The notes under the pieces: model-generated | The model's database searches: none | What the model was told of the DNA's origin: nothing | The model's input: only the letters and a program-made list of their open reading frames with translations | Shown: positions 5,939-45,869 of the stretch, piece by piece | Layout of the letters: each line of letters begins with the position of its first letter | Numbering within the stretch: the stretch's first letter is position 1 | Translations under genes and position numbers: made by a program | NCBI GenBank assembly: GCA_027485815.1 | Contig: JAIXQE010000136.1 | Span: 1 to 59,149, forward strand | Length of the DNA: 59,149 nt | Source of the DNA: Opitutaceae bacterium | Lineage (GTDB): Bacteria > Verrucomicrobiota > Verrucomicrobiia > Opitutales > Opitutaceae | Direction of reading: 5' to 3'

Positions 5939-7690
5939 ATGGAACGTCTTCCCTTCGATCAGCTCGGCCTCTCGCCCGAGATCCTCCGCGCGGTCGCCAA
6001 GCTCGGCTTCGAGGAGGCCTCGCCCATCCAGACCGCGGTCATCCCGGTCGCCCTCACGGGCCGCGATCTGGTGGGACAATCGGCGACCGGCTCGGGCAAG
6101 ACCGCGGCCTTCGCCATCCCGGCGATCGAGAGGATCGACGCCCACCTGAAGGCGGTGCAGGCGCTGATCCTGTGTCCCACGCGCGAACTGGCCGTGCAGG
6201 TGGCGGAGGAGACGGGCCGGCTGGCGTTCTTCCGCCGGGGCATCCGCGAGGTCCCGATCTACGGCGGGCAAAGTTACGACCGCCAGTTCCGGGCCCTGGA
6301 GGCCGGGGCGCAGATCGTCATCGGCACCCCCGGCCGTGTCCTTGACCACCTCGCGCGCGGCACCCTGCGGTTCGACGCGCTGCGCATCGTGGTGCTCGAC
6401 GAGGCGGACCGGATGCTCGACATGGGCTTCCGGGAAGACATCGAGCGGATCCTCGCCGCCGCGCCCGCCACGCGCCAGATGCTGTGCTTCTCCGCGACGA
6501 TGCCCCGGCCGATCCAGGAGCTGATCCAGCGCTTCAGCCGGGACCCGGCGTGGGTGCGAATCGATGCCGTGGCCCGCGAGGCGCCCCAGGTGGAGCAGAC
6601 CTACGTCGAGGTCGATCGGCGCTCCAAGCTGGAGGCCCTCACCCGACTCATCGACGTCCATGACTTCCGGTTCGGGATCATCTTTTGCGGCACCAAGGTG
6701 ATGGTCGACGACCTCGATGAGCACCTGCACGCGCGGGGCTACGCGGTGGACCGGCTGCACGGGGACCTGAGCCAGGCGCAACGCGATCGCGTGATGGGAC
6801 GTTTCCGCGAGCGGAAGTTCGAGTTCCTGATCGCGACGGACGTGGCGGCGCGCGGGCTCGACGTGGACGAGCTGGAGGTGGTGTTCAATTTTGACCTGCC
6901 GAACGACGCGGAGGACTACACCCATCGGATCGGGCGCACGGGCCGGGCCGGCCGGAAAGGCTGCGCCTTCACGTTCGTCAGCGGCCGGGAAATCTACCGC
7001 CTTCAGGCGATGATGCGCGCGGCGCGACTCGATCTCCACCGGGGCCGCGTGCCCTCGTTGGACGAGGTGGAGGAGGCGCGAACCAATGTGTTCTTCGAGC
7101 GGATTCGCGCCACCCTGGAGGCCCGCGACTTCAAGCCGCACGACCGGATGATCGACCGGCTGCTCGACCAGGGTTATTCCAGCACGGACATCTGTTCCGC
7201 CCTGATTCATCTGTTGCGGGTCGGGGCCGCGCCGGAACCTCCGGCGCCCGGCCGAGGCAGCGGCGCCGCGCCCCAAGGCGGGTCAGCGGAAGCCGGGGCG
7301 GAGCCTCCGGCCGCCAAGTCCAAGCCCGCGCGATCGCCCGCGCCGGTGGTTGCCGGGGAGTCCACGGAGGCCCCGGAGGCCGCCCCTTCCGAGCCGGCCG
7401 AGCGTCCGGCCCGCACCGGCCGCGAGGCGGGGATGACGACCCTGTTCCTCAACGTGGGCCGCAAGCAGTTGGTCCAGGTCGCGGACGTCGTCGGCAAGAT
7501 CGCGGGGGTGACCCGCCTGCCCGCGGGGGTGGTCGGGGCGATCGACCTGCACCAGCGCCACACGCTGGTGGACGTCGCGGAGGAGCACGCCGAGCTGATC
7601 CTGCGCAAGCTGACTGGCGTGCGGATGAAGGGCACGGCCCTTGCCCCGGTGCGCGCCACCCCGGGGAAGGGCGGAGCAGGGGCGAGTTGA
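5939..7690 (+). CDS. DEAD-box ATP-dependent RNA helicase with DbpA-like RNA-binding domain
   Basis: A cytoplasmic RNA-unwinding ATPase acting in ribosome assembly or RNA turnover. It has 583 residues. The Q motif (GFEEASPIQTAVIP), Walker A ATGSGKT near residue 49, PTRELAVQ, GTPGRVLDHL, VLDEADRMLDMG (the DEAD box), SATMPRPIQ, and the second RecA domain with ATDVAARGLDVD and HRIGRTGRAGRKG are all intact. A low-complexity Pro/Ala/Glu linker around residues 430-500 leads to a C-terminal DbpA/CsdA-type RNA-binding domain (TTLFLNVGRKQL to the end), suggesting a DeaD/CsdA-like rather than RhlE-like protein. The start at MERLPFDQL places the Q motif normally. It is convergent with the symporter, with stops only 15 bp apart. 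Confidence 0.93.
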   Translation: MERLPFDQLGLSPEILRAVAKLGFEEASPIQTAVIPVALTGRDLVGQSATGSGKTAAFAIPAIERIDAHLKAVQALILCPTRELAVQVAEETGRLAFFRRGIREVPIYGGQSYDRQFRALEAGAQIVIGTPGRVLDHLARGTLRFDALRIVVLDEADRMLDMGFREDIERILAAAPATRQMLCFSATMPRPIQELIQRFSRDPAWVRIDAVAREAPQVEQTYVEVDRRSKLEALTRLIDVHDFRFGIIFCGTKVMVDDLDEHLHARGYAVDRLHGDLSQAQRDRVMGRFRERKFEFLIATDVAARGLDVDELEVVFNFDLPNDAEDYTHRIGRTGRAGRKGCAFTFVSGREIYRLQAMMRAARLDLHRGRVPSLDEVEEARTNVFFERIRATLEARDFKPHDRMIDRLLDQGYSSTDICSALIHLLRVGAAPEPPAPGRGSGAAPQGGSAEAGAEPPAAKSKPARSPAPVVAGESTEAPEAAPSEPAERPARTGREAGMTTLFLNVGRKQLVQVADVVGKIAGVTRLPAGVVGAIDLHQRHTLVDVAEEHAELILRKLTGVRMKGTALAPVRATPGKGGAGAS

Positions 7691-42840: not shown

Positions 42841-44499
42841 TTGCTCGGCGCCACCTTGCATTCGCCCGCGTTCTCCCTTTCGCCGGACGCCGCGCCCGGC
42901 ACCCGCCGCCGCCGCGCCGGCTGGGCTGCCGCCAGCGCGTTCCTCGCGACGGTCCTGCTCACGGTGATCGCCTTTCCCCCCTTCCGGGTGCCCGAGGCGG
43001 CCTACGCGATGCTGTTTCCCGCGGTCTTCTGGGCCTACCATCGGCCGGCGTGGCGGCTTTACCTCGGCACGATGTTCGCCGCCCAGGCGGTCGCGTGGAC
43101 GGTCCTGCTCGGCTGGCTGCACCACGTCACGTGGCTCGGCCTACTGCTGCTGGGACCGTTCATCGGCGCGTGGGTCGGGGTCTGGTTCGGGGCGGTCCGC
43201 TGGGTGATGCCGCGCCTGCCGGGCCAGACCGCCCCGGTGCGCCTCCTCGCGGTGCTCGGCCTTGCCGGGACCTGGGTGGTGGTCGAATGGACCCGCTCGT
43301 GGCTGCTCGGCGGGTTTCCGTGGCTGCCGCTCTCCGCGAGCCAGTGGGAGCGGGTGAGCATCCTGCAGGTGGCCCCCTACACGGGGGCCTACGGGATTTC
43401 CTTCGTGCTGGTGATGATGAACCTCGGCTTCGCCGCCTACGCGCACCGGCTCTTCCGGGAGCGCGCGACCGGCATCAACAAGCGGAGCCAGGAGTTCTTC
43501 CTCGCCCTGTTCCTCCTCCTCACCTGCGTCTCGCTCCACGTCACCGAGGCCTTCAACCGCCGGGGCCAGACCTTGCCTGTCGGCCGGATTGCGATCGTGC
43601 AGCCGAAGATCGCGCAGGAGATCAAGTGGGACCCGCAGCGCGCGCCCGCCATCCTTGAGGTGCTGCGCCGCGTGACGCTCGAGGCCGCCGCCAGCCGGCC
43701 GGACCTCATCCTGTGGCCGGAGGCGGTGACGCCGCTCGCCGTCCGCGGCGACGAGACGGTCCGGGCCTGGGTCGAGGGGTTGGTCCGCGAGGCCCGGGCG
43801 CCGCTCGTGCTCGGCTCGATCGCGGTCGAACAACTCGGCCAGCCCGGCGAAGCCTGGCGCAACGGGGCGTTCCTGGTGACCCCCGGCGAGGGCGTGGCGC
43901 CGAGTTATTACGCGAAGCGGCGGCTGGTGCCCTTTGGCGAATACGTCCCGCTGCGGCCGCTGATCGGCTGGATCGGGAAGTTCGTCCCCATCGGCGGCGA
44001 TTTCGAGCCGGGCGAGGACTCGTCGCCGCTGCTGACGCCCGTCGCCGGCACGGCCGTCGCCGCGGGCCCGCTCATCTGTTATGAGGACATCTTTCCGGGG
44101 CTGGCGCGGGGCAGCGTCCTCGGCGGCTCGGACCTGCTCGTGGTGCTCACCAACAACGGCTGGTTCGGCGAGGGCGGCGCGGCCGAGCAGCACGCGGCGC
44201 ACGCGGTGTTGCGGGCGGTCGAGACGCGTCGTCCCGTGCTGCGGTGCGGCAACGCGGGCTGGAGCGGCTGGATCGACGAGTTCGGGGTGATCCGCTCCCG
44301 GCTCACGGACGAGGCCGGCAGCCTTTACTTCCGCGGTTTCCGGACGCTGGAGGTCACGCGGGACCCGCGGTGGATCGGGCGCGCCACGCCCTACGTCGCC
44401 TGGGGCGACTGGTTCGTCCTGTTCAGCGCCGTGCTGGCGGCGGGGGCGGTGGTGCTGCTGCGGACGGCGCCGCCGCCGTCCGCCGGCGGAGACGCCTGA
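42841..44499 (+). CDS. lnt: Apolipoprotein N-acyltransferase
   Basis: Adds the third acyl chain to lipoproteins in the inner membrane. The start is uncertain: there is no ATG near the beginning, and TTG 42841, TTG 42856 or GTG 42763 are possible; from 42841 the protein has 552 residues. About six N-terminal membrane segments (AASAFLATVLLTVIAF onward, including LGWLHHVTWLGLLLLGPFIGAWVGVW and GFPWLPLSASQW) are followed by the nitrilase-like domain. The catalytic triad is recognisable: Glu in LILWPEAVTPL, Lys in YYAKRRLVPFGEYVPLR and Cys in GPLICYEDIFPG. A last membrane helix closes the protein. Its stop codon forms the edge of the palindrome at 44499-44664. Confidence 0.9.
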   Translation: MLGATLHSPAFSLSPDAAPGTRRRRAGWAAASAFLATVLLTVIAFPPFRVPEAAYAMLFPAVFWAYHRPAWRLYLGTMFAAQAVAWTVLLGWLHHVTWLGLLLLGPFIGAWVGVWFGAVRWVMPRLPGQTAPVRLLAVLGLAGTWVVVEWTRSWLLGGFPWLPLSASQWERVSILQVAPYTGAYGISFVLVMMNLGFAAYAHRLFRERATGINKRSQEFFLALFLLLTCVSLHVTEAFNRRGQTLPVGRIAIVQPKIAQEIKWDPQRAPAILEVLRRVTLEAAASRPDLILWPEAVTPLAVRGDETVRAWVEGLVREARAPLVLGSIAVEQLGQPGEAWRNGAFLVTPGEGVAPSYYAKRRLVPFGEYVPLRPLIGWIGKFVPIGGDFEPGEDSSPLLTPVAGTAVAAGPLICYEDIFPGLARGSVLGGSDLLVVLTNNGWFGEGGAAEQHAAHAVLRAVETRRPVLRCGNAGWSGWIDEFGVIRSRLTDEAGSLYFRGFRTLEVTRDPRWIGRATPYVAWGDWFVLFSAVLAAGAVVLLRTAPPPSAGGDA

Positions 44500-44664
44500 G
44501 CCGGACTCATGCAGTTGATCGGGTCGCCCCGAGGCGATCTGACGGCACCTTTCAGTCTGCGTCAGCCGCTCCACATACCCTCCGGGTATGCGTCGGGCTT
44601 CCTCGACCGAAATCTGCTCGCCATCTCGCCTCGCTGCTCAACCGCCAACTGCATGAGTCCGGCT
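44499..44664. repeat. 166-bp imperfect palindromic element between lnt and M20 peptidase
   Basis: The outer 19 bases on each side (44499-44517 and 44646-44664) are perfect inverted repeats. Twelve bases further in on each side, CGAGGCGA (44530-44537) faces its complement TCGCCTCG (44626-44633). At the centre is a perfect hairpin, CATACCC-TCC-GGGTATG (44574-44590), centred within a base of the midpoint of the whole element. The intervening arms match only partly. The element fills the gap between two convergent genes. It has no coding capacity beyond short chance frames. It could be a mobile palindromic repeat, a MITE-like remnant or a bidirectional transcription barrier. Confidence 0.8.
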
Positions 44665-44678
44665 GAGGCCCAGGGGAC

Positions 44679-45869
44679 TCACCCGAGGGTGATTTCGCCC
44701 CGGGAGAGCTGCAGCAGGAAGAGCGCCGCGACCTGGGCTCGGGGCGCGATCGTGTCGGTGCGGATGAACTCGCGGCTGCTGTGCAGGTGGTCGCCGATGG
44801 GCCCGAGGCCGTCCAGGTTGGGCAGGCCGTCGGCGGAGAGGAAGTTGCCGTCGGAGGCGCCGCCGGTGTGCACCCAGTCGAACGGCGGGAGCCCGACCGT
44901 GGCGGCGGCGGCGCGCCAGGCGGCGAAGGCGCGCTCCTCGCGCGGACCGCACTCCTTGGGCGGGCGGTTGAAGCCGCCGGTCAGCTCCAGCCGGAGGCCC
45001 TCCCGCCGGTTGATCTCGCCCGCCAGGTCCCCGAGGCGCCGCAGCAGGGCGTCGCGGTCGGCGGCGGTGGTGACGCGCAGGTCGATTTCGGCCGCCGCCA
45101 GATCGGGCACGACATTGGTCGCGGGGCCGCCGCCCCGGATGTTGCCGACGTTGACCAGCACCCCGGGCAGCTCGGCCGGGAGACGGCTGGCGGCGAGGAG
45201 GAACTCGGCGAGGGCGAGGATCGCGTTGCGGCCGTCGTTGGGCACCTTGGCCGCGTGCGCGGCCCGCCCGTGCACGGTGGCGGTCATCCCGCCGGTGCCC
45301 TTGCGGGAGCGCACCAGGTCCCCGTTCACGCGGGCGGGCTCGAAGACGAGGCCGAGGTGGTGCCGGGCGGCGGCCGCGGCGAACAGCGCCCGGCTGCCGT
45401 GGGAGCCGGTCTCCTCGTCCGGCGTGAGCAGCACCTCCCAGCCGAGGCGGTCGCCGGGACCGGACGCCTCGAGGGCGGTCAGCGCGGCGAGCATCACCAA
45501 AATCCCGCCCTTCATGTCGATCACGCCAGGGCCGCGCAGGCTCGTAGCGTCGGGGCGGGTGCAGGCTTGGAACGGGTCGTCCGCCTCGTACACCGTGTCG
45601 AAGTGGCCGCTCAGCAGCACCTGTACGGGCGCCGCGGGGCGGAGGCGCAGGCGGAGGGCCGCCGCGGTTCCCGGGCAGGGCGGCTCCTCGATCACCGCAT
45701 CGGGAAAGGCGGCGGCGAAGTCCGCCCGGAGCACGGCGCGCATCCGGTCGAGGCCGGCGCGGTGGCCGGAGCCCGAGTTCACGTTGGCCCAGCGTTCGAG
45801 CTGGTCGACGAGGGCGGGAGTGCGGGCGGGGAGGGCGGCGAGCGGGGCGGGCAGGGCGGAGGAGGGCAC
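44679..45869 (-). CDS. M20 family metallopeptidase (carboxypeptidase G2-like)
   Basis: A two-zinc hydrolase of the M20/M28 clan, 396 residues, starting at GTG (MPSSALPAPLAALPARTPALVDQ). Zinc and catalytic motifs are LLSGHFDTVYEADDPF near residue 86 (His and catalytic Asp), GPGVIDMKGGILVMLAAL near 114 (bridging Asp), LLTPDEETGSHGSRALF near 147 (Glu-Glu), RKGTGGMTATVHGRAAHA near 190 in the dimerisation domain, and the C-terminal metal His in DHLHSSREFI. The HFDTV/DMKGG/DEETGS pattern is closest to glutamate carboxypeptidase G2-type enzymes. No signal peptide is obvious. It converges on lnt across the palindromic element. Confidence 0.88.
   Translation of the reverse strand: MPSSALPAPLAALPARTPALVDQLERWANVNSGSGHRAGLDRMRAVLRADFAAAFPDAVIEEPPCPGTAAALRLRLRPAAPVQVLLSGHFDTVYEADDPFQACTRPDATSLRGPGVIDMKGGILVMLAALTALEASGPGDRLGWEVLLTPDEETGSHGSRALFAAAAARHHLGLVFEPARVNGDLVRSRKGTGGMTATVHGRAAHAAKVPNDGRNAILALAEFLLAASRLPAELPGVLVNVGNIRGGGPATNVVPDLAAAEIDLRVTTAADRDALLRRLGDLAGEINRREGLRLELTGGFNRPPKECGPREERAFAAWRAAAATVGLPPFDWVHTGGASDGNFLSADGLPNLDGLGPIGDHLHSSREFIRTDTIAPRAQVAALFLLQLSRGEITLG

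Follow-up and report, generated by a model that had tools for sequence, protein, structure and literature searches.

The lnt locus and its palindrome

The window, by which we mean the whole stretch of 59,149 nucleotides of Opitutaceae DNA analysed here, contains a gene for apolipoprotein N-acyltransferase (lnt, 42904-44499 on the plus strand; TIGR00546 at 272.3 bits, with Pfam support, the start being approximate) and, facing it on the minus strand, a gene for an M20-family hydrolase (44679-45869; NF005602 at 415.6 bits, and PF01546). Most of the 179-bp gap between the lnt stop codon (44497-44499) and that of the convergent hydrolase gene (44679-44681) is taken up by a palindromic element. Read directly from the sequence, its 19-bp outer arms, AGCCGGACTCATGCAGTTG (44499-44517) and CAACTGCATGAGTCCGGCT (44646-44664), match perfectly; two partner blocks of 8 bp, CGAGGCGA (44530-44537) and TCGCCTCG (44626-44633), lie 12 bases inward of each arm; and a central hairpin with a 7-bp stem and a 3-base loop (CATACCC-TCC-GGGTATG, 44574-44590) is offset from the exact centre by at most half a base. 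This is the geometry given in a preliminary description of the locus, which had also judged the symmetry to be beyond chance, and both statements were borne out. An inverted-repeat search joined the outer part into 51-nt arms with 75% complementarity, and none of 200 shuffled sequences folded as stably as the element on either strand (z -8.0 for the plus and -12.2 for the minus strand). When the whole window was scanned for perfect inverted pairs of 14 bp with a span of 40-400 bp, six overlapping pairs were found at the palindrome and 2 and 1 at two other places. No Rfam family reached its gathering threshold in the window, and a tRNA search gave no tRNA.

The preliminary description had the first arm begin on the last base of the lnt stop codon. 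The perfect 19-bp match stands, but its 19th base pair, A44499/T44664, is the edge of a duplicated target (TGA...TGA) and falls outside the element; the two bases pair by necessity, because both belong to the duplicated TGA. The duplicated pentamer is CTGAG, found on the left at 44496-44500 with the lnt stop codon inside it, and on the right at 44663-44667, 11 bp from the hydrolase stop codon. The left copy is identified from the sequence, the family statistics and the empty sites described below, and the right copy from the sequence and the family statistics. The element itself carries no gene and measures 162 bp (44501-44662), or 164 bp (44500-44663) if the duplication is of 3 bp. One 18-mer, GCCGGACTCATGCAGTTG, forms both terminal inverted repeats (44500-44517, plus strand; 44646-44663, minus strand), and its first G is common to the duplication in the 5-bp reading.

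A dispersed repeat family with duplicated targets

The genome to which the window belongs is a draft (4.08 Mb, 232 contigs, 97% complete) and contains five near-full copies of the element, at 90-100% identity including the window copy and at 90-99% for the four others, together with isolated ends on three contigs, C163, C63 and C160. Searching for the 18-bp end with at most two mismatches gave 12 sites in this genome and hits in 28 of 56 relatives. The 29 positive genomes among 57, the window's own included, divide into 22 of the same genus, four of the family and three of the order, the last with single sites that are perhaps due to chance. Three relatives (G006, G008, G014) have 52-53 sites each, and the reversed 18-mer, used as a control, gave 0-1 sites per genome. 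The exact 18-mer matched 113 contig stretches, labelled mostly as Opitutaceae, Opitutae or relatives. Among the loci listed, 45 have no mate within five mismatches, and 27 of these have a TNA flank; of the remaining 18, one is cut at its end and 13 come from organisms labelled as other phyla, these 13 looking like chance matches. A plasmid or phage origin was rejected, as neither the plasmid nor the phage collection had a match to the element at 1e-5.

MITEs are short elements, roughly 30-300 bp long, that have terminal inverted repeats but encode no transposase. The window element, at 162 or 164 bp with perfect 18-bp ends, and the 79 distinct paired copies, at 68-229 bp, are of this size and build, and several dispersed copies per genome are present in the window's own genome and in G006, G008 and G014. 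Because the first collection of copies demanded one exact 18-mer end, end variation is underestimated in it. Among 40 further loci, 11 have a window-type pair of ends, and most of the others belong to a sister subfamily, some being cut at contig ends.

Identical triplets flank 55 of the 79 copies and all of them read TNA, while random re-pairing of the flanks gave 19.2 on average and a maximum of 30 in 1000 trials; the other 24 copies have no identical triplet. Identical pentamers flank 51 of the 79, all reading CTNAG, versus 17.4 after re-pairing. The family can thus be read in two ways, as a CTNAG duplication around an element with ends CCGG...CCGG (162 bp) or as a TNA duplication around GCC...GGC (164 bp). 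We prefer the 5-bp duplication with a 162-bp element over the 3-bp TGA with 164 bp, because a 5-bp repeat is known from IS1247, a member of the IS1380 family, and TTGAA flanks an IS1380-family element on contig C154 of the window's own genome. In the accessible text of PMC3281130, IS1247 is given as 1672 bp, with inverted repeats of 16/13 and a direct repeat of 5. Among the 55 copies, the outer base is altered and the inner base intact in two cases on the left and three on the right; these altered bases and a copy on contig C222 mildly favour the 3-bp reading.

Relatives preserve what appears to be the state before insertion. The lnt/M20 junction has no insert in G010, G007, G021 and G009, with flanks 85-91% identical to those of the window, and in G019 the end of lnt is insert-free, its contig beginning close by. 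The C222 copy occupies the stop codon of a different gene, at a site that is empty in G010, G019, G021 and G009. These empty sites indicate that the element was inserted into the lnt/M20 junction. An alternative would be a unique, immobile palindrome that arose in place by local inversion and duplication, which would fit perfect arms filling an intergenic gap; this has next to no probability, given the target duplications, the empty sites and above all the copies at unrelated loci, which refute it. The family of palindromic elements that the preliminary description had supposed is accordingly found in the window's own genome and in half of the relatives searched, with the target-site duplications that it had considered worth looking for.

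IS1380-family elements with the same ends

Complete insertion sequences with ends like those of the MITE were found at seven loci, 1430-1498 bp long (G023, G166, G147, three copies in G058, and G223), both ends being within three mismatches of the MITE end. Five of these seven have identical CTNAG flanks, G023 and G223 having unequal ones; at CTNAG targets a 3-bp TNA duplication fits equally. A further, degenerate locus in G020 was left out of this count (with it, five of eight): each of its ends has 3-4 mismatches, its flanks differ, and its transposase is interrupted by two stops. The transposase frame is open in six of the seven and has one internal stop in G223. The G023 transposase scored 239.8 bits against the IS1380 model NF033539, above its cut-off of 180, and the IS ends in G035 and L026 are identical to the MITE end at 18 of 18 positions.

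On contig C163 of the window's own genome, an 18-mer identical to the MITE end precedes the C-terminal third of a transposase. This fragment scored 54.9 bits against PF13701 and 84.3 bits against NF033539, the latter under the cut-off of 180, the protein being truncated, and it is 78% identical to the transposase of this IS1380 clade over query residues 287-486. No complete transposase of the MITE-end clade was found in the drafts of three MITE carriers, namely the window's own genome, G007 and G010. Since the clade's transposase is a fragment in the window's own genome, the MITE copies carried there may be stranded, unless the draft lacks a complete helper present in the organism. Of 200 family genomes surveyed, this one among them, 13 had a transposase match at 1e-60; helpers thus seem to be less widespread than MITEs, and stranding may have befallen many copies. 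Our first guess for a helper, the IS1031 group of IS5, which makes a TNA duplication, was dropped, as the transposase adjoining an end in the window's own genome is of the IS1380 family.

For the window copy, comparison with the IS gave a best match of 39 bp at 85% identity, most of which is the end, so that no clear descent of the interior from the IS is apparent. At another locus (L119, reverse strand, 6953-7554), a copy of 602 bp has 70% identity to the IS over 596 aligned columns and looks like an internally deleted IS1380-type element, an intermediate between IS and MITE. The IS1380-family element on contig C154 (L192:1003-2529) is a second one in the window's own genome, with a 480-aa transposase frame scoring 194.2 bits against the cut-off of 180; its ends, CCTA(G/A)ATTCCGCAGTTG, lie between 5-bp TTGAA repeats, and they start with CC and close with GCAGTTG as in the MITE clade.

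Taken together, we consider it very probable, judging from sequence comparisons, that the palindrome is a MITE, a DNA transposon lacking its own transposase, from a family centred on Opitutaceae and mobilised in trans by an IS1380-family DDE transposase. The shared ends point to this transposase as the likely helper, and the element would have no selected host function. The transposase, acting in trans, would bind both 18-bp ends and excise or copy the element, which would be joined at a staggered cut in a CTNAG target, giving a 5-bp duplication. In the window the target would have been CTGAG at the end of lnt, and lnt would have stayed intact because the target was duplicated together with its stop codon. 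Mobilisation in trans had been proposed in the preliminary description, and it agrees with the multiple copies, the target duplications, the empty sites and the IS1380-family elements with the same ends; the putative helper is the other transposase gene that had been envisaged there, truncated in the window's own genome and complete in relatives.

The REP-associated transposase that had been suggested there fares otherwise. A REP or REPIN-type element, mobilised by a transposase of the RAYT (Y1) kind, would also be palindromic, intergenic and multicopy; Y1_Tnp matches occurred in seven of the ten genomes searched, and GTAG repeats are, in the accessible part of PMC3733652, highly enriched in O. 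terrae. Those repeats are a different kind of element from the window MITE, both of whose ends read GCCGG and carry neither a GTAG nor a CGTC tag. There were no PF01797 matches, and hence no RAYT, in the window's own genome (a 97% complete draft), and target duplications and 18-bp ends common with a DDE transposon also argue against this origin, which we regard as very improbable.

Among known systems, the MITE family resembles RUP of the pneumococcus (IS630-Spn1), the TIMEs (Tn3) and MITEPye1 (IS1182) in being short, without a transposase gene, with terminal inverted repeats matching those of a transposon, with direct repeats and with a foldback structure; such MITEs linked to an IS or transposon are described in the accessible text of PMC3049150, PMC4133298 and PMC11578231. 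It differs from them in its likely helper of the IS1380 family, in its CTNAG target and in the many unlike interiors that its ends enclose in a single bacterial family. With the IS1380 family, as represented by IS1247, it shares the transposase family of the likely helper and, in the preferred reading, the 5-bp duplication; unlike insertion sequences of that family it has no transposase, and the clade of its likely helper has ends CCGGACTCATGCAGTTG and the target CTNAG. ISEcp1 is a further IS1380-family insertion sequence. In the open-access literature, neither MITEs derived from IS1380 nor MITEs of Opitutaceae came up in our searches, nor did a paper connecting IS1380 with Opitutaceae, and the accessible text of several open-access papers that name both IS1380 and MITEs attributes no MITE to IS1380. 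The novelty of an IS1380-derived MITE family in Opitutaceae is provisional.

Subfamilies and decay

Grouping by shared interior words placed the 79 paired copies into 15 clusters, and some copies have the same end variant in both arms. A sister subfamily in G010, G007 and G019 has a related interior and both ends close to GCCGGGACGATTCAGTTG, at sites that are mostly CTNAG-like (loci L355-L363, L370-L376 and L382), suggesting that the ends of both arms were altered together. On contig C63 of the window's own genome (63784-63809; L227:3785-3810, also L376), a lone 20-bp end with TTA copies on either side lies at a stop codon. At the orthologous site, G007 has a full sister-subfamily MITE, G021 has a clean CTTAG, and short scars are left in G010, G019 and G009; comparison of these six genomes suggests that one stop-codon site was used repeatedly and that copies were lost by internal deletion. 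Three other loci (L031, L133 and L135, the last without a TNA flank) have an 18-bp end followed by other hairpin-like repeats, as if different hairpins had been captured beside it.

Foldback structure and the terminator question

The preliminary description had offered a bidirectional terminator as a second explanation. No intrinsic terminator, that is a G+C-rich stem followed by a T run, was found on either strand in 44300-44900. A broader possibility is that the foldback is a working 3'-end structure, stopping or shielding the message of either convergent gene, with the hairpin under selection. The structure was examined in 41 of 47 copies of similar length, after exclusion of five that barely resemble the window copy and of L369, whose ends were not resolved. 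Across these copies the pairing of the inner 8-bp blocks is largely kept, and in some the stem pairs of the central hairpin are altered on both sides. The 43 consensus pairs are paired in 96.9% of cases versus 88.1% in shuffles, 15 of the 43 are altered on both sides (11.3 in shuffles), and 142 cells have a double-sided change versus 48.7; pairing is destroyed when the partner is slid. These values would favour selection on the structure, but related sequences exceed shuffles even without structure, so kinship inflates the pairing measures, and additional pair types are no more numerous than in shuffles (40 versus 38.2; 106 of 500). An excess of G-U over A-C pairs depends on the choice of pairs and was not used. 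The alignment points to maintenance of the palindrome, which could act at the level of RNA or of DNA or through copying from arm to arm.

In 39 of the 41 aligned copies one strand is more stable than the other, as might be expected of a functional RNA. The difference averages 15.2 kcal/mol in the window's subfamily but does not exceed 6.2 in any other multi-copy subfamily. In 15 of 29 copies, as by chance, the gene whose stop codon is abutted would be transcribed into the more stable strand; with no such orientation bias and no stem with a T run, the bidirectional terminator is not supported. We rejected an RNA function deduced from this asymmetry, the copies also sharing ancestry. With the ends fixed, interiors of 15 subfamily representatives folded with z from -6.8, in the window's subfamily, to -0.1, and in six of the 15 the folding did not surpass that of shuffles (z no stronger than -1.2). 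The neighbours of the copies would again favour a role at 3' ends: of the 52 copies outside genes, 23 lie between convergent genes, 19 between tandem and one between divergent genes, nine being at locus edges without orientation, so that 23 of 43 with both neighbours called are convergent. Avoidance of promoters and gene bodies can account for these positions without function, and a selected 3'-end structure appears unlikely to us.

Insertion at gene ends

A simple home-made gene caller based on codon usage was applied after removal of the element to the 55 copies with identical triplets, the 24 of 79 without them being excluded. The target lay on a stop codon in 29 copies, between genes in 23 and inside genes in three, versus 40, 69 and 132 for the 241 other CTNAG sites at the same loci. 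A cruder test, for an open frame of at least 150 codons ending at the TNA, was positive for 35 of 55 copies versus 75 of 294 sites. The odds ratio for stop codons is 5.6 against all CTNAG sites, and most of this bias can be explained by selection against disruption of genes and promoters; against intergenic CTNAG sites only, it falls to 2.2 (p 0.027 with the home-made caller), a weak preference, and we did not adopt a preference for stop codons beyond selection.

Read from one of the two strands, TNA is TAA or TGA, so that a stop codon is restored when an element inserts at the end of a gene, and CTNAG is scarce in the GC-rich window (48 sites versus 154 expected from base composition). Perhaps this IS1380 lineage evolved its CTNAG target and so inserts for the most part at stop codons, restoring them, which would be a built-in reduction of harm, CTNAG being scarce within genes of GC-rich genomes. 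We hold this idea only tentatively and think it rather doubtful.

The palindrome beside lnt is thus identified, a repeat family of the genus is tied to a likely transposase, and the empty sites document insertion. Pairs of occupied and empty sites such as that at lnt are natural controls for the effect of a 3' hairpin on convergent genes. If the tentative idea of harm reduction were true, it would allow IS and MITEs to build up behind genes, where they would supply 3' hairpins ready for use. The stop-codon target is a simple and testable route by which a transposon could spare its host.
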